Shown here: piece by piece, positions 41,431-53,536 of the stretch
Layout of the letters: the number at the start of each line of letters is the position of its first letter
Numbering within the stretch: position 1 is the stretch's first letter
Translations under genes and position numbers: made by a program
Assembly: GCF_003687725.1 (NCBI RefSeq)
Contig: NZ_RDOJ01000009.1
Span: forward strand, 1 to 64,000
DNA from: Faecalibacter macacae
GTDB taxonomy: Bacteria > Bacteroidota > Bacteroidia > Flavobacteriales > Weeksellaceae
Reading direction: 5' to 3'
Length of the DNA stretch: 64,000 bases
The notes under the pieces: model-generated
Told to the model about the DNA's origin: nothing
What the model saw: only the letters and a program-made list of their open reading frames with translations
Databases searched by the model: none

Positions 41431-44400
41431 TTACCTATTCTTCTTAAAATTCTCGGCCTGTTCCAATACATTCTTGTAAACATCTTCTTGCGTAATAGGA
41501 GGGTAACCAAACTCGTGAAGCTTGATAATAATATCCATTTTCAATTGTGCTTTAATATCATCTCGTTCAGCCCAATCAGGATATTGAGAGGCGTTGTCTA
41601 CAATCTTTTTTATTTCACGAGCGAGTTCTAACATTTTATCTTTATCGAATTCAAATCCATAATTTTTACAAATGACATCCAAAATATCGTAGAAAGCTTT
41701 TTCTTCATAATCGATGCCTAAATCTTCAAATGAAGCCATTTCAGTGCGTAATTTGATGATTAAATCTAGCATTTGTTCTGCTGTATCAGCTTGTATACCA
41801 TCATAATCTAAAATATCTTTTTCACTACGTTCGTTGTAACGATCCACAATGCTTTTCAAACGTTCAGCAAAATCTTGACCTTTCACTTTATTCACTTTTA
41901 TAAAGTCAGTAATCGTTTGTTTTAGTAAACGTTCTAAGATTTTAATCTTTGTGTTCGGTAATTCAAGATTAGAGATTTTCTCAATGAATTTATCGTTAAA
42001 CAAATCAATAGCATTGGCTTTATTATCATCCAGTTTAAAGATTTCCTCTACACCTTCAGATATTATCGCATCTTCTACCATTTTAGCTACTTTTTCATTC
42101 ATTTGAGCCGTGTCAGGTGCTTCTCCTTTGGTCAACTTGACAACAATGGATTTAACGGCAAAATAAAAATGAATTTCATCCACTTCTTTTGGTGTGAATA
42201 ATTCAGAACCGCTGACCAAATTATAAGCCGACTTTAATTTCTTCGTTACATTGACAAAAAATTTTTCCGATTCTTCCGTCAATAACACAAATTCAGATGC
42301 TTTTTGTAAACATTGCAAACGTTCTACAGGATTTCCTTCATAATATCCTTTGGCATCAAACGTATGAAAATACTGACGTAACAAATCCATTTGATCTCGA
42401 ACCAGTATTTCAGCTTGTTTTAAGTCCTCAAAATCATCATCGGCAGTTTGGTTGTTGAACACGCCTAACGCTTTGTTCAAATTCTTTTTAATTCCAATAT
42501 AATCAACCACTAATCCGCGATCTTTTCCTTCGTATTTTCGGTTGACACGAGAAATGGTTTGTATTAAATTGTGCGTTTGTAAAGGTTTATCAATATAAAT
42601 AGTATCTAAAAAAGGAACATCAAATCCTGTCAACCACATATCTACTACAATCGCAATTTTAAAGTTGGATTTGATGTGTTTAAACTGTCGATCCAATTCT
42701 TTACGTTCATCTTTATTACCCAAAAGCTCCCAAAGCTCTTTTTCATCATCTTTATTACGTGTCATCACCATTTTCACACGTTCGATAGGTTTGATTTCTT
42801 TTTGCTCTTTCTCAGTTAATCCATCCGAAATATTTACTTCTCCCCATTCAGGTCGTAAGGCTAATATTTCTTGGTACAATTTATATGCAATGGTACGAGA
42901 AGCACATACAAACATCGCTTTTCCTGCAACGGTAGCACGTTCCTCGATACGTTTTTCGTAATGCGCAATAAAATCTTGTGCAATGGCTTTAATTCGATCC
43001 GTATCCCCTAAAACAACTTCCATTTTAGCAATCGCTTTTTGGCTGGCTTCTACATGATATTCAGAAGCGCCTTCGGCTACTGCATTTTCGTAATAGGCTT
43101 CAATTTCTTGCACCTTATTGTAATCTAAATTGACTTTAGCGGCTCTTCCTTCATAGACCAAACGAACGGTAATTTCATCATTTACAGACTCGAACATCGT
43201 ATATTGATCTACCACCTCTCCAAAAACTTCTAACGTTTTGTCGATAGGTGTTCCTGTAAATCCTACATAAGTTGCATTAGGTAAAGAATCGTGTAAATAT
43301 TTAGCAAAACCATAGGATTTTGTCACTCCTTTTTCCTCGTCAATTTTAATTTTTAAGTCTAAATTCACTTGTGACCGGTGGGCTTCATCCGAAATACAAA
43401 TGATATTGGTACGATCGGATAAGATTTCAGCATCTTCAGCAAATTTCTGTACCGTAGTCAGATAAACACCACCACTTTCAATTCCTCTTAATCGAGATCG
43501 TAAATCGGCTCTAGATTCGATATTGATGATATTTTCATCCCCAATGAATCTCTTGGCATTGGTAAAATCTTTCGACAATTGGTCGTCTAAATCGGTACGG
43601 TCTGAAATGATAATAATCGTAGGACTTGCAAAATTGGTTGAACGCATCAATAGACGCGTTAAATACAGCATCGTATAACTTTTTCCACAACCTGTTGCAC
43701 CAAAGTACGTTCCACCTTTTCCGTCGCCTTCAGGTTTACGGTGAGCTTTGATGTTTTGATACAACTTATTGGCCGCATAATATTGCGGATATCGACTTAA
43801 AACCTTTAGCTCTTTTTTAGAAGAATCAGGAAACAAAACAAAATGATGGATGATATCGACCAATCTTGTTTGGTTCAGCATTCCATGAACAATAGAAGTT
43901 GTAGTTTCTATACCTGTTAAAGCTTTTTTTTCTACTCCCGTAATTTTATTCCAACCGTAGTAAAATTCGTAAGGAGAAAATACTGTTCCGGCTTTGTTAT
44001 TCACCCCATCACTAATCACACAAAACACATTGTATTTCAATAGTTCGGGTATATCTCTTTTATAACGATTAGTTAATTGTTCGTATGCTTTAAAGATTGT
44101 TATTTCTTCCTCAATTAATGTTTTAAATTCAAAGACCACAACTGGAATACCATTGATGTATAAAATCAAATCAGGAATTCGTAATTCAGTTCCTTGAATT
44201 TCAAGTTGATTGACAGTTTTAAATGTGTTATTGTCTACCGAATCACAATCGATATATCGTATATGTAAATCCTTTTTTTGTGGATTGTTACGTTTAAAAA
44301 TAAATCCATCTGCCAATAATTTGCAAATGTATTTATTAGACTCGTACAAATTAGAAGTCGATTGAAATGCCAATTCATTGATGATGCTTTCCAATTCTAT

Positions 44401-44568
44401 TTCTTCTAAATCTTCATAACGATCTTGTAAAAAAGCGCGCAAATCTTCCTTAATCAATACTTCTTGATTAGAAGTTCTTATTAATTCTTTTCCGTTAATA
44501 TAGTGATAGCCTTCTGCATCCAAAAGGCCTATAAATGCTTATTCTAATTGTGATTCGGTGTATTTCAT
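41431..44568 (-). CDS. hsdR: Type I restriction enzyme HsdR with a nonsense codon at position 10
   Basis: The native start appears to be the ATG at 44566-44568, reading MKYTESQLE, then TAA (44539-44541, where CAA/Gln is expected), then AFIGLLDAEGYHYINGKEL. If the stop is absolute, translation can only begin at the TTG at 44523, giving 1030 aa that lack 17 residues. The rest is intact: nuclease motif IPDLILY...VVVFEFKTL (D...E-x-K), translocase Walker A GATGCGKSYTM, DEAH box SDEAHRSQ, then the SF2 helicase motifs and a helical C-terminus. HsdR cleaves DNA remote from unmethylated HsdMS sites. The gene is separated from hsdMS by about 6 kb of insertions. Confidence 0.88.
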
Positions 44569-44626: not shown

Positions 44627-44646
44627 GGGCGAATTGCAATTCGCCC
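44627..44646. repeat. REP-like palindrome between hsdR and the transposase gene
   Basis: The perfect 20-bp palindrome GGGCGAATTGCAATTCGCCC, preceded on the plus strand by three 9-bp-like repeats of the type CGGTTGGGG/CAGTTGGGG. The same motif occurs at 44844-44863 and 45372-45391 and, with one change, inside hsdM at 52358-52377. Confidence 0.85.
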
Positions 44647-44658
44647 TTACTTATGCTA

Positions 44659-45327
44659 TTACTGTAATAGGTTATATTCGTCGTTAATCCATCGTTTAGG
44701 ATTTTCAATAATGTAATTACTAATATTGATATAAGCCTTTTCATCTCTTATGATATGTTCATAGTAGTTACGTTGCCAGATTTTATAATCTAAGGATTTT
44801 ATGATTTCCCTCGTTGTAGCGGTTGGGACGGTTGTGGCAGTTGGGGCGAATTGCAATTCGCCCTTACTATCTACGCCCTTACTATCTTCGCCCTTACTAT
44901 CTTCGCCCTTACTATCTACGCCCTTACTTTCTTCTGTTCGTTTTACTATTTTTTTTATTCTTTTTATAGTAGCTATTTTATAGCCTCTTACGATTGCACC
45001 TATGGTTTGGGATGGCGATTTAAAAGCGCTTACAATATTACTAGATTCTTTTGGATATTGTATTTCTATAATACCATGGATATGATTAGGCATTACAACA
45101 TATTCATGCAATACAACATTATCTCTAACCTCTTGCGTATGTAGCCATTCATCAACTGCAATTTGCCCAAATTCATTCAAATACATGATGCCATCTTTTA
45201 TATCACCAAACAAATGCGCTCTATCTTGACAAACTAAAGTAACAAAATACAATCCCGCTTGGCTATAATCATAGCCAACCAAACGTATCGACTTTCGATG
45301 ATGTTTATAAGGGTTGTATTGTTCCAT
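44659..45327 (-). CDS. REP-associated tyrosine transposase (RAYT, IS200/IS605-like fold)
   Basis: 222 aa. The N-terminus HHRKSIRLVGYDYSQAGLYFVTLVCQDRAHLFG and the HUH motif VVMPNHIHGIIEI (H-x-H) match TnpA_REP proteins; the catalytic Tyr is probably in WQRNYYEHIIRDE. RAYTs are single-copy enzymes believed to spread REP palindromes. Between residues about 130 and 170 the protein carries SKGVDSKGEDSKGEDSKG and GELQFAPTATTVPTATT, which are the translation of a 15-bp tandem repeat and of a REP palindrome lying inside the gene. The frame survives. Four REP-like palindromes lie within 8 kb. Confidence 0.88.
   Translation of the reverse strand: MEQYNPYKHHRKSIRLVGYDYSQAGLYFVTLVCQDRAHLFGDIKDGIMYLNEFGQIAVDEWLHTQEVRDNVVLHEYVVMPNHIHGIIEIQYPKESSNIVSAFKSPSQTIGAIVRGYKIATIKRIKKIVKRTEESKGVDSKGEDSKGEDSKGVDSKGELQFAPTATTVPTATTREIIKSLDYKIWQRNYYEHIIRDEKAYINISNYIIENPKRWINDEYNLLQ
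44844..44863. repeat. REP palindrome inside the transposase gene
   Basis: An identical copy of GGGCGAATTGCAATTCGCCC in the coding sequence of the RAYT, together with the CGGTTGGGA/CAGTTGGGG flank seen at the outer copy. It is translated in frame as part of GELQFAPTATT. Confidence 0.85.
44861..44927. repeat. 15-bp tandem repeat in the transposase gene
   Basis: Four full copies of CCCTTACTATCT(A/T)CG plus a partial fifth, each starting with the REP end CCCTTAC. Because 15 is a multiple of 3, copy-number change would keep the reading frame. Encodes SKGVD/SKGED repeats. Confidence 0.85.
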
Positions 45328-45371: not shown

Positions 45372-45391
45372 GGGCGAATTGCAATTCGCCC
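45372..45391. repeat. REP palindrome upstream of the transposase gene
   Basis: The same 20-bp palindrome 45 bp before the RAYT start, again preceded by GTTGGG and followed by CATACTATCTTCGCCC, a degenerate start of the 15-bp repeat. The RAYT gene is thus bracketed by REP copies. Confidence 0.85.
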
Positions 45392-46248: not shown

Positions 46249-49200
46249 TTAAATAAAAAATCTATAATCATATTCTGAAGTTCCTATATTATTTACTAGT
46301 TTACCAATTCTAGCTATTTCATTAGATGAAAATATTGTTGCGGGCAATTGAGAATACATATTTAGGGAATTCCAATTCATTTTTGAAAGTCCTAATATTT
46401 CATTTGAAATTTGTTCTAAAGAACTATTACCATAATGTCTAATTATCTTTAATGGTTTAGGTATATACCTTCCTCCAGGATAAAAATTAAAATTATGGTT
46501 TTGAACTGCTGGAATTATTCCATGTGTCCATAGTAATGCTGAGTTATATGATAATTGAATACAAGTGCCTCTAGCCACTGAAAAACCATCTATTTTAGCT
46601 TCTCCATTTATAATTTTGCTAGAAACATATTTTATATCCTCTTCAAAATTAATTTCAATTAAATCAACATTTTCGACATTAGCATTTTCTAATAAACTAT
46701 CACATATTCCATCTGTTTCCTCTTGAGTAAAAAAAGTTCTTTTATGTATCACAACACGCTTTGGTATTTCGTTCATTGATTCATAAAATAAATTAATAAT
46801 TGATCTTCCAAAATCATATGCATCATCGTAAGACAAATGAGGTTTTTTGTCTCTCCATTGAATTTTATCATTACTTAATTTAGATAATTTATATTTTAAT
46901 CCTTCACCATTTGAAGTGTATAAATGACTGCATCCTAGTACAATATGATTTTTATTTTGTTTATCAATACTATATCCAATTCCTGCGAATGCTGTTTCAT
47001 TTGTTGAATTTTCAACTAACCAGGGTGTACGGAAAGATTTTACGTAAAATGATAAAGAAAGCCACCAAATTACTTGACATTCTTGTTTATAATCTAATAT
47101 TGTTCTTTCTGTAATAAATTGAGATGTTAAACCTTTTTCTGCACAAAAAGCTTTTATATAATCATGTAAATCAAATGATTCTATATTATTAGAATAAGAT
47201 GTGTAGGGTAACCATTTATTAGGAATAAAAATGACAATAATCTTTTGACTACCTGATGCACTTATTTTAAGAATTTCTGAACAAATAGTCTCTTTTATAG
47301 AATGTGAAATAGCTCTCGAATCATTTTGTAAATTAATCGTATTAATTTTTTTCCAATCCTCAGATTCGATTTCAGGTATTTTTAATTTCACTTTATAAGT
47401 GTCTTCAAACCCTTCGTAATTAATTACATAATTTTCCTTTGGATTGGTGGTTGATATTTTTTTATTCAATTTATTAAGAAAATTAAACAATTGATTACTA
47501 TATTCATCAATACATAATACTGAAAGTTTTATTTCTTTTTTTAAAAAATGATTAACACCTGTTTCAAATGGATTATATTGAACTAACCCTTTCATTGGAT
47601 GTGGTTCGAAACTTCTTTTACCTCCATTTACGGAACTAAATATCAAGTTTGGTTCTTTAAATTTTACACCTTTATAACTTATCAAATTTGCAGGTACATT
47701 ATGTGATTCATCACGAGATTTTGTTAAATCATCAATTATAGTAAATATTGGATTCTTTGTTACCTTGAAACTAAAACCCGAATTAGAACTTATTGGATAA
47801 TCAAATTCTGATGTATTGATAAATAATCTTTTTCTCCATTTATCTACATAGTCATTAAATTTATTATTCCATATTTGATGAAAATATTCTAATCCTATTC
47901 CATGTAAATCATTTTTAGATTCTACATAAAAATCAGGATTTAATGTCAAATAATACTGTTTATTGATTATTTCAATGTCTAAGCGAATAGCACTATATAC
48001 CTTTTGTCCTTTAATAGTTTTCCAATCATTAGCATCCCATAATTTTCTTTTGAAATCAGTATTTAAATTACTACTAGAAGAATAATATTTACATAAAGAT
48101 GAAAGAAACAAGTATATCAGATTATTAGATGTATTTGATATTTCCGTAATTGGTTTTCGACCTAACTTACCATTTATCAAATTTTCAAAAGCATTATGAA
48201 TACTATCAGCAGTACCTAATGTCCAAATTTGATTGCCTATTGGAACTGCTGTAATATTTTTATTTGACAAAATATTTTCATTTAAATAATCCCATGTTTT
48301 TCCAGAAATTTTATGCTCAAAAACATAAACTTCTTTTGGAAATTGAATTGGAAAACAATTACTTTTTAAAACTGTACTAGATTTTCTTTGTACTAGATTA
48401 AATGGAGTTGACTCAATATTTTTACTACTATTTTTTACAATAGATTTAAATTCTTCATCTAATTCTTTATTAGATGCTAAAATTAATTGGCTAATTTGAC
48501 GTATTGCAATATCAAAACCCTCTGTAGCTATGTAAAAAGCTTTATTTCTAGTCTTATTTGCATGGTTTATTAATTCAGTAACAGTTTTACTTTTATTTTC
48601 ATGATAACCACACCAATATAGTCTACCACCACCATCTTTTGAATAAACATCTTTTAATGTATTCATTAATGAATGATCTCTACCACTATACCCTAAAACA
48701 ATTAAATGTTTATCTGCTAAATATTCAATCATTTTTTCACGAAAAACTTCATCTTGCTTTTTAAGTTCTTCTTCTGTGTTTTTTAAATCACCATATTTAA
48801 AATCTCCGTGTAATTTTATAATAGGTAATTCGGAAATATTTTGAGCACGACTATTTATTCTTGAAGTATTATCTAAAGAAATATCTATAGATTGAAATCT
48901 CTGTGATATACAAGCATCTCGTATTAAATCATCGAAATTAGTTGTCCAAACACTATCTAAAAATCCAAATTTTGCTAATAATGCTGTTCCTTTATAACCT
49001 ATAGATGGTTGAGCATTTGAACAAATTTTTTGAAAATACTTTCTTCTATCATCATCAATTGGAAAACATTCATTAGCGTAAAATGAATATTCTATATCTG
49101 AATCTTTGGTCGGAAATCTTCCTTGATTATCTAACCAATTCTGGATTATGTTTTGATTTTTTTTATTTTTAAAATTTTCTAAAGATTCATCTGAAATGTT

Positions 49201-49359
49201 ATTATTAGTCTCGTAAATCATTTTTTTCCATTCCCAAATACAATCAGAAGCAGATTGTATTCCAGATGATATAGAACATCCAGCACCTAATAAAAATGCA
49301 TATTTATCATTTTTAGAGATAATCAAGGATCTTTTGAATTTATCAAAATCTAATTCCAT
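46249..49359 (-). CDS. SIR2 domain fused to a short-type prokaryotic Argonaute (SPARSA-like, single chain)
   Basis: 1036 aa. Residues 1-290 are a SIR2 NADase-type domain: FLLGAGCSISSG (GAGxS, residues 25-29), WTTNFDD (138-144), IIKLHGDF with catalytic-type His184, and VLGYSGRD (221-228). The middle (about 320-560) fits the APAZ position. The C-terminal about 450 residues look like MID-PIWI: KLSVLCIDEYSN, FAGIGYSIDKQN, PKRVVIHKRTFF, IIRHYGNSS and the hydrophobic C-terminal end YDYRFFI. The first PIWI Asp is replaced (AGIGYS), as in catalytically dead short Argonautes. Related systems sense invader nucleic acid through a guide and deplete NAD+. Here both parts are one polypeptide, sitting within a type I RM locus. 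Confidence 0.85.
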   Translation of the reverse strand: MELDFDKFKRSLIISKNDKYAFLLGAGCSISSGIQSASDCIWEWKKMIYETNNNISDESLENFKNKKNQNIIQNWLDNQGRFPTKDSDIEYSFYANECFPIDDDRRKYFQKICSNAQPSIGYKGTALLAKFGFLDSVWTTNFDDLIRDACISQRFQSIDISLDNTSRINSRAQNISELPIIKLHGDFKYGDLKNTEEELKKQDEVFREKMIEYLADKHLIVLGYSGRDHSLMNTLKDVYSKDGGGRLYWCGYHENKSKTVTELINHANKTRNKAFYIATEGFDIAIRQISQLILASNKELDEEFKSIVKNSSKNIESTPFNLVQRKSSTVLKSNCFPIQFPKEVYVFEHKISGKTWDYLNENILSNKNITAVPIGNQIWTLGTADSIHNAFENLINGKLGRKPITEISNTSNNLIYLFLSSLCKYYSSSSNLNTDFKRKLWDANDWKTIKGQKVYSAIRLDIEIINKQYYLTLNPDFYVESKNDLHGIGLEYFHQIWNNKFNDYVDKWRKRLFINTSEFDYPISSNSGFSFKVTKNPIFTIIDDLTKSRDESHNVPANLISYKGVKFKEPNLIFSSVNGGKRSFEPHPMKGLVQYNPFETGVNHFLKKEIKLSVLCIDEYSNQLFNFLNKLNKKISTTNPKENYVINYEGFEDTYKVKLKIPEIESEDWKKINTINLQNDSRAISHSIKETICSEILKISASGSQKIIVIFIPNKWLPYTSYSNNIESFDLHDYIKAFCAEKGLTSQFITERTILDYKQECQVIWWLSLSFYVKSFRTPWLVENSTNETAFAGIGYSIDKQNKNHIVLGCSHLYTSNGEGLKYKLSKLSNDKIQWRDKKPHLSYDDAYDFGRSIINLFYESMNEIPKRVVIHKRTFFTQEETDGICDSLLENANVENVDLIEINFEEDIKYVSSKIINGEAKIDGFSVARGTCIQLSYNSALLWTHGIIPAVQNHNFNFYPGGRYIPKPLKIIRHYGNSSLEQISNEILGLSKMNWNSLNMYSQLPATIFSSNEIARIGKLVNNIGTSEYDYRFFI

Positions 49360-49398
49360 AAGTTTTTTTCTAGTAGTTAATTTTGAATATTAGTTAGT

Positions 49399-49459
49399 TT
49401 ACCCCTCCAACCTCGCCAAGCGACTTAACAACAACGATTGAAGTTGGGAGTGTTTTGTA
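49399..49459. repeat. hsdS 3'-end repeat, copy 3
   Basis: On the minus strand it can be read LQSLLLSRLARLEG-stop, the C-terminus of HsdS. It follows the DUF3024 gene and precedes the SIR2-Argonaute gene. It is close to copies at 49838-49898 and 50401-50460. Confidence 0.8.
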
Positions 49460-49462
49460 TTT

Positions 49463-49804
49463 TTACCCAAAGAAGCAATGGAACTGATCTTCTTTTATAA
49501 TCGCTAATAAATCTTGTAAATGATCAGCAATTGGGTGTGGATCGTACAACTCCCATTTGCCAGAAGCACGCATCCAATACAGTTTCCATTCATTTGTGGT
49601 TTTTGTATAGCGAATTTTTGCAAAATTGGACTGAATTAACTCATTCGGATTATTCCAAAATGGACGAATCGTATATAAAATGGCAGTATTCTTTTCCCAA
49701 GAATACCCAAAATCTAATTGTTTGCGTATCTCGTGATCTTCTGGTCGTAAGCCTTCTACAAATTGTTTAATATATGCTTCGCTAATACTAATTTCTTTTC
49801 CCAT
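49463..49804 (-). CDS. DUF3024-like protein
   Basis: 113 aa. The pattern EDHEIRKQLDFGYSWEKNTAILYTIRPFW...AKIRYTKTTNEWKLYWMRASGKWELYDP matches DUF3024, a small alpha/beta family often next to restriction or defence genes. No catalytic residues stand out; many aromatic residues (W, Y) line the putative sheet. It sits between two copies of the hsdS 3' end, as if inserted as a cassette into the RM operon. Function unknown. Confidence 0.7.
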   Translation of the reverse strand: MGKEISISEAYIKQFVEGLRPEDHEIRKQLDFGYSWEKNTAILYTIRPFWNNPNELIQSNFAKIRYTKTTNEWKLYWMRASGKWELYDPHPIADHLQDLLAIIKEDQFHCFFG

Positions 49805-49837
49805 TTGTGTTGATTTTTATAGTAGTTTAGTTTTTCT

Positions 49838-49898
49838 TTACCCCTCCAACGTTGCCAAGCGACTTAACAACAACGATTAAAGTTGTGTGAGTTTTTGA
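49838..49898. repeat. hsdS 3'-end repeat, copy 2
   Basis: The sequence corresponds to LTQL-stop-SLLLSRLATLEG-stop of HsdS on the minus strand, with a CAA to TAA change. It follows the DUF6998-like gene. With copies 1 and 3 it brackets the two cargo genes. Confidence 0.8.
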
Positions 49899-50363
49899 TT
49901 ATGCTATTCTATTTATTCTATCAATATTAAAGTCCGATAAATTTAACTCCTTCAATTTATTTAAAGATAATCGATAAGGATACTTCCTTTCAGTTGGTAA
50001 GTGAGACAACAAATGTTTATAAATTATATCACCACGTCCATTAAAAATTTCTTCAAAAGTCCCATCCTTATTTATATTAATGGCAATAAAGTAGTCAGGC
50101 ATTTTTGTTAAGTCCTTTGGAAAATAGAAATAGTTGTTGAATGAAGATTTAATTTGAACTTCCTTAGTTGAGTCACTGGTAAGAAAACCATCATATACCG
50201 CTTTATTATCTTTATGTAGGGTAATACCATAATATTCTGCGGCTAAAACTTCACCGATATCACCTACAAGCTTACCATCTAAAGTAAATTTCTTGTTATG
50301 ATGGCTATATTTTTGTTGTAACTTTTCTATGGCTATAAAAAATTGCTCTAATTCATCTTTCAT
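49899..50363 (-). CDS. DUF6998-like protein
   Basis: 154 aa. It starts with a helical region (LEQFFIAIEKLQQKYS). A central alpha/beta region VGDIGEVLAAEYYGITLHKDNKAVYDGFL...KEVQIKSSFNNYFYFPKD resembles a nuclease-like core: E in GEVLAAEYYG, D in YDG, and E-x-Q-I-K-S, an approximation of the D...(E/Q)xK pattern of PD-(D/E)XK enzymes with Q in place of the second acid. Proteins annotated DUF6998 are often found beside type I RM genes. It sits 37 bp beyond hsdS and is followed by an hsdS 3'-end copy. A helper in DNA cleavage or protection is only a suggestion. Confidence 0.6.
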   Translation of the reverse strand: MKDELEQFFIAIEKLQQKYSHHNKKFTLDGKLVGDIGEVLAAEYYGITLHKDNKAVYDGFLTSDSTKEVQIKSSFNNYFYFPKDLTKMPDYFIAININKDGTFEEIFNGRGDIIYKHLLSHLPTERKYPYRLSLNKLKELNLSDFNIDRINRIA

Positions 50364-50400: not shown

Positions 50401-51981
50401 TTACCCCTCCAACGTAGCCAAACGACTTAACAACAGCGATTGAAGTTGAGTGAGTTTTTGGTTTTGTTTTGATATTAATATAATTTCATCATCAATGTGA
50501 TTCATTTTCTCATGAAAATCTTTGCTATAATTCTCGTTGTAAATCACTTTTAGATTAAACAATTCATCTTTATTTATAGAACTAAATATAGTTCCAGTAC
50601 CATCACTTAATTCAAAATGAGATTTAAAGCTTTTCATTAAGTAAAATAAATATGATGATTCTTTTGAAGAAAGTGCAGCAATACCACGTCCGATACTACA
50701 ATCACTATCAGCAATATTTAAATCACCTACTGGTGCTCTTACAGACATTAAAACATCTCCTTTCTTTGCATTTTTCTTTGATAAAGTTGTAAATATTCTA
50801 ACTTCAGGAATTCTAAAACCAAAATCAGTTCTTCCTTGATAAAATATTTTACCATTACCTTTATCATTATAATTTTCTCCTTCTGGAGATTGTCCCATTG
50901 TAATCTTAGAAATATCTGATAAACTCTTCACCTCCCAACCCTCAGGAATTTCCTTTTCTAATTCTTCATTGAAAACCATTTTCCCTGCCGTCCTTAACTC
51001 CGTTTGCGGGGCAGGTAAACTGGTTTTTAGTTGAGTGATTCCGCCTGCTTTTTCAATTTGCCTGCTTATCCAAGTTCTACCATAGCCTGTTTTTAAATCT
51101 TTTTCTCTTTTTACAGCTTCTTCCTTTGTTGCAAAACTTTCCCAATGAATAACTTTTAAAGGTTTATTAAGTTTTGTCCATTCAGCACCTTCTCCCATAT
51201 AGTGTTCGTAAAACCTACGGTATAAATCATTCGTCATTCCTTTATAAACAGAATCGTTCTCACATAAGATAAGATATACAAACCAAGTTTTGCCATCTGA
51301 AACGGGTAAACCACCCACCTTGCTATATGTACAAACACTTCCTATCTTAGTAATATATTCATCGATTGGCAGATTTTGGTTTACCTGCCCGTGAGGACGA
51401 TAGCCCGAAGGAAGGCAGGGAAACTCAAAATCGACAAACCATTGCTTGTACAAGGTCTGAGCAGTAGCTTCCAACTTCTCGCAGATTTGTTCGTTGACTT
51501 TTATTTTGTTTTCTATCGCTTGGTATTGCGCTACAATTTCGCGTTGTTTCTCGATGGATGGAACAGGTAATTCTACTTCACATAATTCTTCCCAATCAAA
51601 AGATTCTCTTGTACTTCCATGCGAGTGATAACGTGCATAACGATCAAATTCTGGTCGAGAAAACCACATCATCAGATATTCAGGTAGCAATTCATTTTTA
51701 TCTATTACTTCAAAAACAATATAGATTTGAGAAACCAAAGCCTTTTCATATTCATCAGCTAATGCAATAGATATTTTATCTCCATTTCTAGATGTAATGG
51801 TTCCGTATGCGAATTGCCCCTTTTCAATAATCTTATACGTAGACATATCCGTTCCAACAGTATTAGCAATGGAAGGAATCAATTTTTTAGTAATACTTAC
51901 ACCAAGCAATGTATCAACTTGTAAATCTCTGTTACGATTATTTACTTGTTGAATATAATTACCCAACTTTTTATAACTCAT
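50401..51981 (-). CDS. hsdS: Type I specificity subunit HsdS with an inserted GIY-YIG nuclease domain
   Basis: 526 aa. Residues 1-186 are TRD1 and the first conserved helix: SYKKLGNYIQQVNNRNRDL, SRNGDKISIALADEYEKAL, LPVPSIEKQREIVAQYQAIE, TLYKQWFVDFEFP. Residues about 340-526 are TRD2 and the second helix: MVFNEELEKEIPEGWEVKSL to QKLTQLQSLLLSRLATLEG. Between them (about 187-334) lies a domain foreign to HsdS: WFVYLILCENDSVYKGMTND, LYRRFYEHY, AVKREKDLKTGYGRTWI, the GIY-YIG fold of the YhbQ/UvrC-like single-domain family. Its edges are GC-rich hairpins. HsdS dictates the methylation/cleavage target. The gene overlaps hsdM by 11 bp. Confidence 0.9.
   Translation of the reverse strand: MSYKKLGNYIQQVNNRNRDLQVDTLLGVSITKKLIPSIANTVGTDMSTYKIIEKGQFAYGTITSRNGDKISIALADEYEKALVSQIYIVFEVIDKNELLPEYLMMWFSRPEFDRYARYHSHGSTRESFDWEELCEVELPVPSIEKQREIVAQYQAIENKIKVNEQICEKLEATAQTLYKQWFVDFEFPCLPSGYRPHGQVNQNLPIDEYITKIGSVCTYSKVGGLPVSDGKTWFVYLILCENDSVYKGMTNDLYRRFYEHYMGEGAEWTKLNKPLKVIHWESFATKEEAVKREKDLKTGYGRTWISRQIEKAGGITQLKTSLPAPQTELRTAGKMVFNEELEKEIPEGWEVKSLSDISKITMGQSPEGENYNDKGNGKIFYQGRTDFGFRIPEVRIFTTLSKKNAKKGDVLMSVRAPVGDLNIADSDCSIGRGIAALSSKESSYLFYLMKSFKSHFELSDGTGTIFSSINKDELFNLKVIYNENYSKDFHEKMNHIDDEIILISKQNQKLTQLQSLLLSRLATLEG
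50979..51423. mobile_element. GIY-YIG-encoding insertion with hairpin ends inside hsdS
   Basis: About 445 bp inserted in frame. The left hairpin runs TTTTCCCTGCC...GGCAGGTAAAC (50979-51020) and the right hairpin TTTACCTGCCC...GGCAGGGAAA (51380-51423). The two outermost 11-bp ends, TTTTCCCTGCC and GGCAGGGAAA, are inverted repeats of each other, and each hairpin stem is CCTGCC/GGCAGG. The encoded part between is the GIY-YIG domain. The layout (nuclease gene with palindromic ends) recalls REP/RAYT units, but with a GIY-YIG enzyme. Higher GC than surrounding sequence at the ends. Confidence 0.7.
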
Positions 51982-53536
51982 AGCCCAACGATTTAAATAC
52001 GTTAGTTACTTCTTGTTTCAAAGCTTCTTCTTGCTGAAACAAGTCTTTCAATTCGGTTTGCAAGGCTTGCATTTGGGTATCGTAATCGATGTTTTCGTCA
52101 CGGTTTACAAACTCAATGTATTTACTTGGCACCAACGAATAATCTTTTTTACGAATCTCTTCTAAGGTTGCACTATAGCAATATTCTGGTTCGTTCGTAT
52201 AAGTCGTTGCCACATCTTTCTGTTGCCAGTTATGATAGGTTGCTGCAATTTGCTCAATATCTTGTTCGGAAAACTGAATGAATTTCTTTTCAAACGGTTC
52301 TCCTTTTTGGCGTAAATCCATAAACAACACTTCACCTTCGCGGTTACGGTACTGTCGGGGCGAATCGCAATTCGCCCTTACTTCAGTGCGTTCTGTTTTA
52401 TTACGATTCAATATCCAAAGCGTTACCGAAATATCTGTAGAATAAAACATATTACGAGGTAGAATCACAATCGCTTCTACCAAGTCGTTTTCTATAATTT
52501 GTTTGCGGATTTTGTATTCTTCACCACCACCCGAAAGGGCGCCATTGGCTAAGATAAAACCAGCCACACCGTTTTGCGAAAGTTTCGAAATCATGTTCAA
52601 AATCCACGCATAATTGGCATTGGATTTTGGAGGAACTTCGTAACCAGTCCAACGTGGATCGTCTGTTAATTCGTTTTCAGCGCGCCAATCTTTTAAGTTG
52701 AACGGAGGATTTGCCATGATGTAATCGGCTTTCAATTCTTTGTGCTGGTCGTCACCAAACGTATCGGCCGCTTTGTTTCCTAAATTGGCTGAAATCCCAC
52801 GAATAGCTAAGTTCATTTTAGCCAGTTTAAACGTAGTATTCGTTAATTCTTGTCCGTAAATGGAAATGTCTTTTTTGTTTCCTTGGTGCTTTTCAATAAA
52901 CTTCAACGACTGCACAAACATACCACCCGAACCACAAGAAGGATCATAGATCTTTCCTTTATAAGGTTCAATCATTTCGGCAATCAAGTTTACAATTGAT
53001 TTTGGCGTATAGAATTCTCCTTTCCCTTTTCCTTCGGCAATGGCAAACTTGCTCAAGAAGTATTCGTACACACGCCCCACAATATCTTGTGCTTCATCAC
53101 GAAGCGTATCGATGTTGTTGATGGTATCCAATAAAGCCGAAAACTTAGATTGATCCAATCCCAATCGAGAAAAATAGTTATCAGGTAATGCACCTTCTAA
53201 TGATTTGTTAGTACGTTCAATCGTTTTAAGTGCGGTATCTACTTTTAGCGTAATATCTTCTTGTTTGGCATTCTCAATAATGTAATCCCAACGCGATTCC
53301 TCTGGTAAATAGAATACATTTTCTGCCTGATAAAATTCTGGTATTTCTAAGAAGGCCTCTTTTCCTTCTGCAATCAATTCTTCTCTACGTTTGATGAATT
53401 TATCACTTGCAAATTTCAAGAAGATTAAACTCAACACCACGTGTTTATATTCGGATGGTTCAATTGAACCACGTAATTTATTTGCTGCATCCCAAAGGAT
53501 TTCTTCTGTACTTTTAGTTTGTACTTTTTTTGCCAT
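51971..53536 (-). CDS. hsdM: Type I DNA methyltransferase subunit HsdM
   Basis: 521 aa. It methylates adenine in the HsdS target using SAM. Helical N-terminus (EILWDAANKLRGSIEPSEYKHVVLSLIFLKFASDKF), SAM motif DPSCGSGGMFVQ, catalytic NPPF in YIMANPPFNLKDW, and ILPRNMFYSTDISVTLWILNRNK. At about residues 384-396 the stretch EVRANCDSPRQYRN is the in-frame translation of a REP palindrome inserted in a loop that is variable between HsdM proteins. It begins the RM locus; the next gene hsdS overlaps by 11 bp. Upstream 332 bp carry no gene and are likely the promoter region. Confidence 0.95.
   Translation of the reverse strand: MAKKVQTKSTEEILWDAANKLRGSIEPSEYKHVVLSLIFLKFASDKFIKRREELIAEGKEAFLEIPEFYQAENVFYLPEESRWDYIIENAKQEDITLKVDTALKTIERTNKSLEGALPDNYFSRLGLDQSKFSALLDTINNIDTLRDEAQDIVGRVYEYFLSKFAIAEGKGKGEFYTPKSIVNLIAEMIEPYKGKIYDPSCGSGGMFVQSLKFIEKHQGNKKDISIYGQELTNTTFKLAKMNLAIRGISANLGNKAADTFGDDQHKELKADYIMANPPFNLKDWRAENELTDDPRWTGYEVPPKSNANYAWILNMISKLSQNGVAGFILANGALSGGGEEYKIRKQIIENDLVEAIVILPRNMFYSTDISVTLWILNRNKTERTEVRANCDSPRQYRNREGEVLFMDLRQKGEPFEKKFIQFSEQDIEQIAATYHNWQQKDVATTYTNEPEYCYSATLEEIRKKDYSLVPSKYIEFVNRDENIDYDTQMQALQTELKDLFQQEEALKQEVTNVFKSLGYEL
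52358..52377. repeat. REP palindrome inside hsdM
   Basis: GGGCGAATCGCAATTCGCCC differs at one base from the island REP, and is followed by the same TTAC flank. It is translated in frame in a loop between the catalytic domain and the GEVLFMDLR segment. Confidence 0.85.

Follow-up and report, generated by a model that had tools for sequence, protein, structure and literature searches.

How does a GIY-YIG nuclease domain come to lie in frame in the middle of the specificity subunit of a type I restriction-modification (RM) system, and does it move as a unit of its own? This question is raised by hsdS of Faecalibacter macacae within the 64,000-nucleotide stretch of DNA analysed here (contig NZ_RDOJ01000009.1, positions 1 to 64,000; hereafter the window). 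The gene has the two TRDs, the conserved regions and the neighbouring hsdM and hsdR of a type I RM specificity subunit. Methylase_S was found in two stretches of its ORF (Pfam), and PADLOC type I specificity models matched HsdS on either side of the insert. The features of the locus are the following:

50401..51981, minus strand: hsdS with the insert, 526 aa, frame open throughout (ORF, Pfam, PADLOC)
51420..51981, minus strand: TRD1 and conserved central region of HsdS, ahead of the insert
50984..51419, minus strand: insert proper, 436 nt, from CCTGCC at 51419 to GGCAGG at 50984, in frame
51384..51419, minus strand: 5' (coding-sense) hairpin, CCTGCC..GGGCAGG, read as CLPSGYRPHGQ
51079..51285, minus strand: GIY-YIG catalytic domain, UPF0213-like (Pfam, structure relatives)
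50984..51015, minus strand: 3' (coding-sense) hairpin, CCTGCC..GGCAGG, read as LPAPQTELRTAG, an inverted copy of the 5' hairpin
50401..50983, minus strand: conserved restart (KMVFNEELEKEIPEGWEV) and TRD2, behind the insert
51971..53536, minus strand: hsdM of the same system, intact (ORF, type I models)
41431..44523, minus strand: hsdR of the same system, intact (ORF, type I models)

Between hsdR and hsdS the locus also encodes a 1036-aa SIR2/pAgo-type protein (46249-49359; PADLOC pAgo, 1365 bits). About 55-70 nt from the 3' terminus of hsdS (50401-50470) are repeated twice downstream, at 49394-49463 and 49831-49895, and the repeats surround small ORFs at 49463-49804 and 49899-50363, an arrangement suggestive of cassettes being exchanged at direct repeats.

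The insert and its hairpin ends

The GIY-YIG domain (PF01541) was detected at HsdS residues 233-301 with 53.4 bits against a cut-off of 22.6. Y11, Y21, R31 and E56, which we take to be the catalytic residues, were invariant in our GIY-YIG alignment (A1). The nearest solved structures were the UPF0213 proteins 1ywl and 1zg2, and searches of NCBIfam and PHROGs returned no name for the window's own domain. An AlphaFold model of HsdS built on a 12-row alignment had a mean pLDDT of 57 and a pTM of 0.34. Its GIY-YIG part (about residues 231-311) showed strands and helices in a GIY-YIG-like order with block means of about 63-77, a long helix covered residues 143-183, and the linkers 179-228 and 322-333 as well as most of TRD2 were below 50.

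On either strand, both insert ends folded as DNA hairpins better than 200 of 200 dinucleotide shuffles (z -3.65 to -5.76). The ends are mutually inverted over 16 nt at 94% (TTTCCCTGCCGTCCTT / AAGGAAGGCAGGGAAA), with the inner 12 nt at 100%. Throughout the 2.9-Mb genome the exact hairpin pattern and the looser CCTGCC-N4..34-GGCAGG occurred just at these two ends, and a whole-genome search found no other copy of the insert, which is single-copy, or of the hairpins. The same genome had four further GIY-YIG matches, all elsewhere. One free-standing 105-aa GIY-YIG gene, on contig C8 (locus L002, 1411-1909), is flanked by a pair of direct repeats, each about 68 nt long.

The sequence-only reading had described a GIY-YIG domain in frame amid HsdS and hairpins with a CCTGCC/GGCAGG stem at both ends; the former is confirmed by the open 526-aa ORF, the Pfam score and the TRDs on either side, and the latter by the fold against shuffles. 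Its view of the outer ends as inverted repeats stands for the 16 inverted nucleotides and falls for TTTCC and GGGAAA(A), which flank the insert as host codons and are present in uninterrupted alleles too (e.g. that of genome G109). Likewise, its limits of 50979..51423 did enclose an in-frame insert and have to be redrawn, the element proper running from about 50984 to 51419.

No ATG was present between the insert start and the domain in eight of eight inserts. Internal starts are possible at a GTG in the window's insert (lacking in that of Empedobacter falsenii) and at a TTG in genome G325, and the inserts in HsdR of G456 and G725 have a GTG within the hairpin. With no ATG start upstream of it, the nuclease domain is most likely translated only within the host protein. 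The coupling with HsdS that had been proposed holds in the physical sense of one reading frame.

Unoccupied alleles and relatives in RM genes

Two of the 14 genomes of the genus carried the insert, the window's own and G099, whose locus is found letter for letter within Empedobacter falsenii Q1655. The same HsdS type occurred without the insert in six of the 14 (G044, G021, G109, G083, G073 and G061). HsdS residues 1-189 were matched at 61-97% in these six alleles, with 95-97% protein identity for G044, G021 and G109. Where the insert would be, the uninterrupted alleles read FEFP-NEEGKPYKSSGG-xMV or near variants. Comparison of alleles with and without the segment therefore placed the junction, and showed that the insert substitutes about 12 linker residues (NEEGKPYKSSGG) and is no clean addition. 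In G044 the hsdS frame is broken by a stop codon in the conserved central region, immediately ahead of the linker.

The inserts of the window and E. falsenii agreed at 428 of 436 positions (98.2%), whereas the adjacent DNA was 85-90% identical (51/60 and 130/150 in the 5' flank, 45/50 in the 3' flank; Fisher p 1e-7). Identity of hsdM was 89.2% over 1506 nt. The 150-nt 5' flank of the window was closer to four of the six unoccupied alleles (138, 137, 134 and 133 identities; 125 and 129 in the remaining two) than to the occupied E. falsenii allele, and TRD1 and TRD2 both differed between the two occupied alleles. Because the insert is more alike than the adjacent hsdS DNA and both TRDs are different, it moved as a unit and arrived in two hsdS backgrounds without neighbouring DNA. 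The sequence-only reading had proposed a small, frame-preserving mobile unit and had named a broad presence of the domain in HsdS as a finding that would speak against it. Such a presence did not hold, with two occupied genomes of 14 and six uninterrupted alleles, and the mobile unit is upheld by its lack in sister alleles, by insert identity above flank identity and by relatives with similar ends elsewhere.

The two best non-self matches of the insert among 395 genomes of the phylum were in G456 (52%, in an ORF of 1339 aa) and G325 (46%, 717 aa). When alignment A1 was searched against 391 genomes, four matches exceeded 110 bits, in G456, in G725 and twice in G674, and the next, in a small ORF, scored 83 bits. 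Nothing but the window itself was above 76 bits in the 296 genomes of the order. A scan of named genomes matched just E. falsenii and a tRNA-linked gene of WOR-1, and none of 28 plasmid records with relatives of the insert exceeded 60% identity.

By Pfam, the GIY-YIG domain was accompanied by HsdR in G456 and G725, by a type ISP enzyme on contigs C25 and C39 of G674 and by HsdM in G325. A gene on contig C135 of G674, truncated by the contig end, combined it with an N6 methylase/Eco57I-like protein. A second GIY-YIG subfamily was in frame in EcoEI-type HsdR of G803, G681 and G303; these loci (L228, L229 and L230) also showed tandem STSSPTA-type repeats beside the domain. Among the matches listed, at least 11 loci, one of them cut by a contig end, had the domain in an ORF of at least 526 aa, and 11 of 11 were RM genes. 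Frames of middle length (about 100-340 aa) at free GIY-YIG genes in 12 regions appeared by eye to be upstream read-through and were rejected as host genes.

Insertion sites could be read by comparison with copies lacking the insert. At the type ISP site, with three occupied and three unoccupied copies, proteins without the insert read CPD-GSKDENVFDI, EDGRKDENVFDI and SPDGSKDENIFDI (L236, L237 and L246) and those with it PD-LPAPRSG..MARQAG-G. At the HsdM site the corresponding readings were VPD-AWIDH (L302; L301 and L303 similar) and PD-LPAPLPESG..MERQAG-AWIDH. Both inserts are clean additions that follow a Pro-Asp codon pair, start with CCTGCC and end with GGCAGG. The HsdR site reads W-KSVDGKKE-ASHL without the insert (L250) and, with it, W, a hairpin (PVCVRARTGR), KSVDGK, the GIY-YIG part and ASHL; here the hairpin (CCTGTCTGCG..) lies a few codons, about 20 nt, ahead of the GIY-YIG part, and both HsdR relatives are without GGCAGG at the 3' end.

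The three diverged type ISP genes of G674 carried near-identical inserts at one position. The inserts were identical at 269 of 284 positions (C25/C39) and at 176 of 180 (C25/C135, cut), the 5' flanks at 63/90 and 62/90, and the host proteins were 59% and 45% identical overall. At synonymous sites the insert domain had diverged by 0.18 and 0.09, and the host was saturated. For this sister element, near-identical inserts at one paralogue position are seen in the sequence. The dN/dS of the insert domain was 0.16 and 0.09 for the G674 pairs and 0.18 for G725/G456; the window and E. falsenii domains, with 0 synonymous and 2 nonsynonymous changes, are too alike a pair to tell, and their whole inserts gave 0.43.

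Another nuclease domain, DUF559, was seen in frame in the HsdR of G456 (L231), and by eye the HsdR of G326 (L256) has apparently the same kind of insert in the same place. These DUF559 inserts adjoin PSLNPSQREG-like stretches and are perhaps a parallel element with a different nuclease.

Article listings from a search of literature outside subscription journals gave no description of GIY-YIG domains within type I RM genes, nor of palindrome-bounded GIY-YIG units. Fusions outside RM are on record, as PMC1564403 describes N-terminal methyltransferase-GIY-YIG fusions in Lactobacillales, to which an Enterococcus match from our search of plasmid records was comparable.

Free-standing relatives and palindromes

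The 234 loci collected comprised 216 GIY-YIG sites, 176 of them different, which were sorted by best query into 102 window-like sites and 74 of another type. A tRNA gene was within 400 bp at 57 of the 102 window-like sites and at none of the 74 others, and 56 of the 57 tRNA-linked genes shared the strand of the tRNA. At 14 tRNA-linked sites an intact tRNA followed downstream of the GIY-YIG gene, and five of these 14 had an upstream copy of the tRNA 5' half that was split directly after position 21 or 22; at the WOR-1 locus L136 the split was after position 18. The splitting stretch folds as a hairpin in L029, L202, L209, L168 and L136 (e.g. CCTGCCTGCCGCAGGCAGG in L202), and in L024 it reads CCTGCC..GGCAGGCAGG. 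The tRNA match ends 13-21 nt beyond these hairpins (44 nt at L029). In all six of these loci the hairpin sits in the D-loop region.

CCTGCC..GGCAGG was found within 200 bp of 8 of 95 window-like sites, the window and E. falsenii included, compared to 0 of 81 control windows and 0 of 73 sites of the other type, with 8 sites with short flanks left out of the count. GC-rich palindromes were somewhat commoner near the type not linked to tRNA as well (7/73 vs 1/72). In a tree of 108 GIY-YIG domains, poorly resolved on 85 columns and with one RM row (G803) mislabelled as 'other', tRNA linkage required 12 changes, compared to a mean of 36.3 after shuffling, and for the RM label the count was 3, compared to 8.8. 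The inserts of HsdS, HsdR, HsdM and type ISP were near one another with a single origin unsupported, and the second RM group was placed elsewhere.

GIY-YIG units with other ends were also encountered. In G113, of the same genus, a unit with other inverted ends occupied one position in two diverged, presumably transposase-like genes, with the insert identical at 300 of 301 positions and the flanks at 52/60 and 43/60. Repeat-protein-like and transposase-like genes contained inserted GIY-YIG genes at L027, L032, L100 and L105, and the ends of these units were short and inverted (TCAAATAA..TTATTTGA; CCCCGT..ACGGGG).

Palindromes were counted across the phylum as well. The form CCTGCCTGC-N0..20-GCAGGCAGG had 538 copies in 107 of 391 genomes, and the reversed control occurred once each in 3 genomes. 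It was present in 84 of 188 genomes with an A1 match (E 1e-12) versus 23 of 203 others (p 9e-14, odds ratio 6.3), a co-occurrence that ignores kinship and counts any A1 match, not the tRNA-linked type alone. None of 28 solo palindromes sampled, one locus per genome, was near a tRNA or GIY-YIG gene, which argues against a strict pair of palindrome and nuclease. The loose hairpin pattern was dropped as a census tool after 197 genomes of the family gave mostly chance-looking places.

A different palindrome, GGGCGAATTGCAATTCGCCC, was observed in the window at 44627-44646, 44844-44863 and 45372-45391, exact and at or within a Y1_Tnp-like gene (44659-45327). A fourth copy with one mismatch lies in frame in hsdM (52358-52377); four copies in the window compare to 0 expected, and the E. 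falsenii hsdM (L010) has two by eye. This palindrome and the Y1_Tnp-like gene appear to be a separate REP/RAYT-type system at the same locus.

Homing as the probable explanation and comparison with known systems

We favour, with a probability of about 0.68, the reading of the insert as a small homing-type mobile element that consists of a GIY-YIG domain between CCTGCC/GGCAGG ends and sits in frame in the hsdS linker. The insert, its ends, the empty alleles, the kept frame and a recent, flank-independent movement can be read from the DNA itself. Among the marks of homing, occupied and unoccupied alleles at a fixed site were found for HsdS and type ISP, and spread independent of host descent for HsdS, type ISP and the transposase-like gene of G113; carriage as a free gene or by an intron or intein was not found, as the domain is internal and in frame. 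Homing would explain the common site in homologous genes, the likeness of inserts against diverged flanks, and the empty alleles.

The steps might be as follows. The linker between the TRDs would tolerate the insert, which is kept in the reading frame and, without an intron or intein, would not be removed. This linker seems a tolerant place because a second, unrelated HsdS of the same genome (contig C45, locus L048) holds a different, palindrome-like stretch, CATCCTGAACTTGTTTCAGGATCTC, in frame there. An allele without the insert would be cut by the GIY-YIG domain close to the place of insertion, and would receive the element when the break is repaired by copying. I-TevI and similar enzymes of the GIY-YIG class cleave some 23-25 nt ahead of their insertion point. 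With the tRNA match ending 13-21 nt beyond the hairpins, and the GIY-YIG part of HsdR starting about 20 nt after its hairpin, the hairpin ends may disrupt the cleavage site and thereby shield an occupied allele; alternatively, they may act as processed ends. RM genes may be favoured as targets because they are often exchanged, so that uninterrupted alleles keep appearing.

The restriction of the long ORFs to RM genes, the purifying selection on related inserts and the occurrence of a second subfamily in EcoEI-type HsdR would also suit an accessory nuclease domain, captured as useful to the RM enzyme, with the hairpins as scars of capture. We consider this unlikely, since the inserts are in four kinds of RM protein at unrelated places, HsdR already owns a nuclease, close sister alleles sharing TRD1 lack the insert, and near-identical inserts in diverged ISP genes resemble spreading rather than function. 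Somewhat less probable still is a passive passenger, carried in the conserved hsdS centre whenever ordinary homologous recombination exchanges TRDs. The two occupied alleles do differ in their TRDs and have the insert-bearing centre in common, but a recombined centre would have brought its flanks along, and the conserved DNA adjoining the insert is not shared to the same degree as the insert.

Two further explanations invoke known kinds of mobility. That the hairpins are mobilised by a Y1 (RAYT-type) transposase, with the GIY-YIG domain as cargo, could be considered in view of the nearby Y1_Tnp-like gene, although this gene scored 21.9 bits, under the Pfam cut-off of 23, and is bordered by GGGCGAATTGCAATTCGCCC instead of CCTGCC..GGCAGG, whose hairpins are in the genome just at the insert; we regard this as very improbable. 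A self-splicing intron or intein with a GIY-YIG homing nuclease has the least to recommend it and is scarcely credible. GIY-YIG nucleases are classic intron endonucleases according to PMC3943268, and the two HsdR relatives weakly matched a model of group I intron endonucleases, with 20.7 and 24.3 bits where the cut-off is 56. A search of 50700-51700 with Rfam nevertheless found no intron, its 4 matches at E up to 1 all falling far short of the gathering threshold, no Hint or splicing domain was among the Pfam matches up to E 0.01, and the entire insert is an open frame.

The homing-type reading can be widened, tentatively and at somewhat below even odds, to a new mobile class of Bacteroidota (with the WOR-1 example) in which UPF0213-like nucleases home together with palindromes, in a tRNA and an RM branch and with immunity by the hairpin. 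If so, in the tRNA branch a redundant tRNA half would be split by the hairpin, some 15-20 nt ahead of the end of the tRNA match, and the RM branch would do without splicing and borrow the translation of its host. The hairpin would confer immunity by destroying the site that the element's nuclease cuts, and solo palindromes would be derived copies that lack the cargo.

Several known systems resemble the insert in part. The UPF0213/YhbQ/YazA-type small GIY-YIG proteins, placed in a Slx1-like cluster in PMC1564403, are the sequence family of its domain; these proteins are encoded by genes of their own, in contrast to the present domain, which lies within RM proteins and is bounded by hairpins. 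Some nuclease domains of 'multi-domain' restriction enzymes may be selfish inserts, and such enzymes deserve to be read again in this light. REP/RAYT and REPINs also tie GC-rich hairpins to a DNA-processing enzyme. Here, in contrast, the enzyme is GIY-YIG and not Y1, there are no dispersed copies in the genome, and presence is site-specific, at homologous positions. A dispersed system of this kind, to which the sequence-only reading had drawn an analogy, was not supported, with hairpins at a single locus here and none in 9 of 14 genomes of the genus, and the analogy is loose because they occur nowhere else in the window's genome.

Rickettsia palindromic elements are palindromes in frame within genes and also occur in RNA genes. 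They share with the elements described here short palindromic DNA in frame inside protein genes, and in RNA genes too, and differ in that here a nuclease gene lies between the palindromic ends as a candidate for moving them, which, to our knowledge, is not known for the Rickettsia elements. The puzzle of palindromic in-frame elements would thereby be linked to a candidate mover, a link that is testable by cleavage, and the free-standing branch beside tRNA genes, with its spare tRNA half split by a hairpin, would give the same test at many sites.

Homing endonucleases of the GIY-YIG class include I-TevI and the free-standing Seg genes of T4. As in homing endonuclease genes, a GIY-YIG domain is at a defined site, the insert is more alike than its flanks, and relatives have alleles without it. 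Unlike them, the domain is in the host frame and neither in an intron or intein nor a free gene, its ends are palindromic, and it is short and UPF0213-like, with no recognised separate DNA-binding module. Homing nucleases are thought to last in conserved genes since introns and inteins hide them; the insert in hsdS points to a third way of hiding, which is to remain in the finished host protein at a tolerant place.
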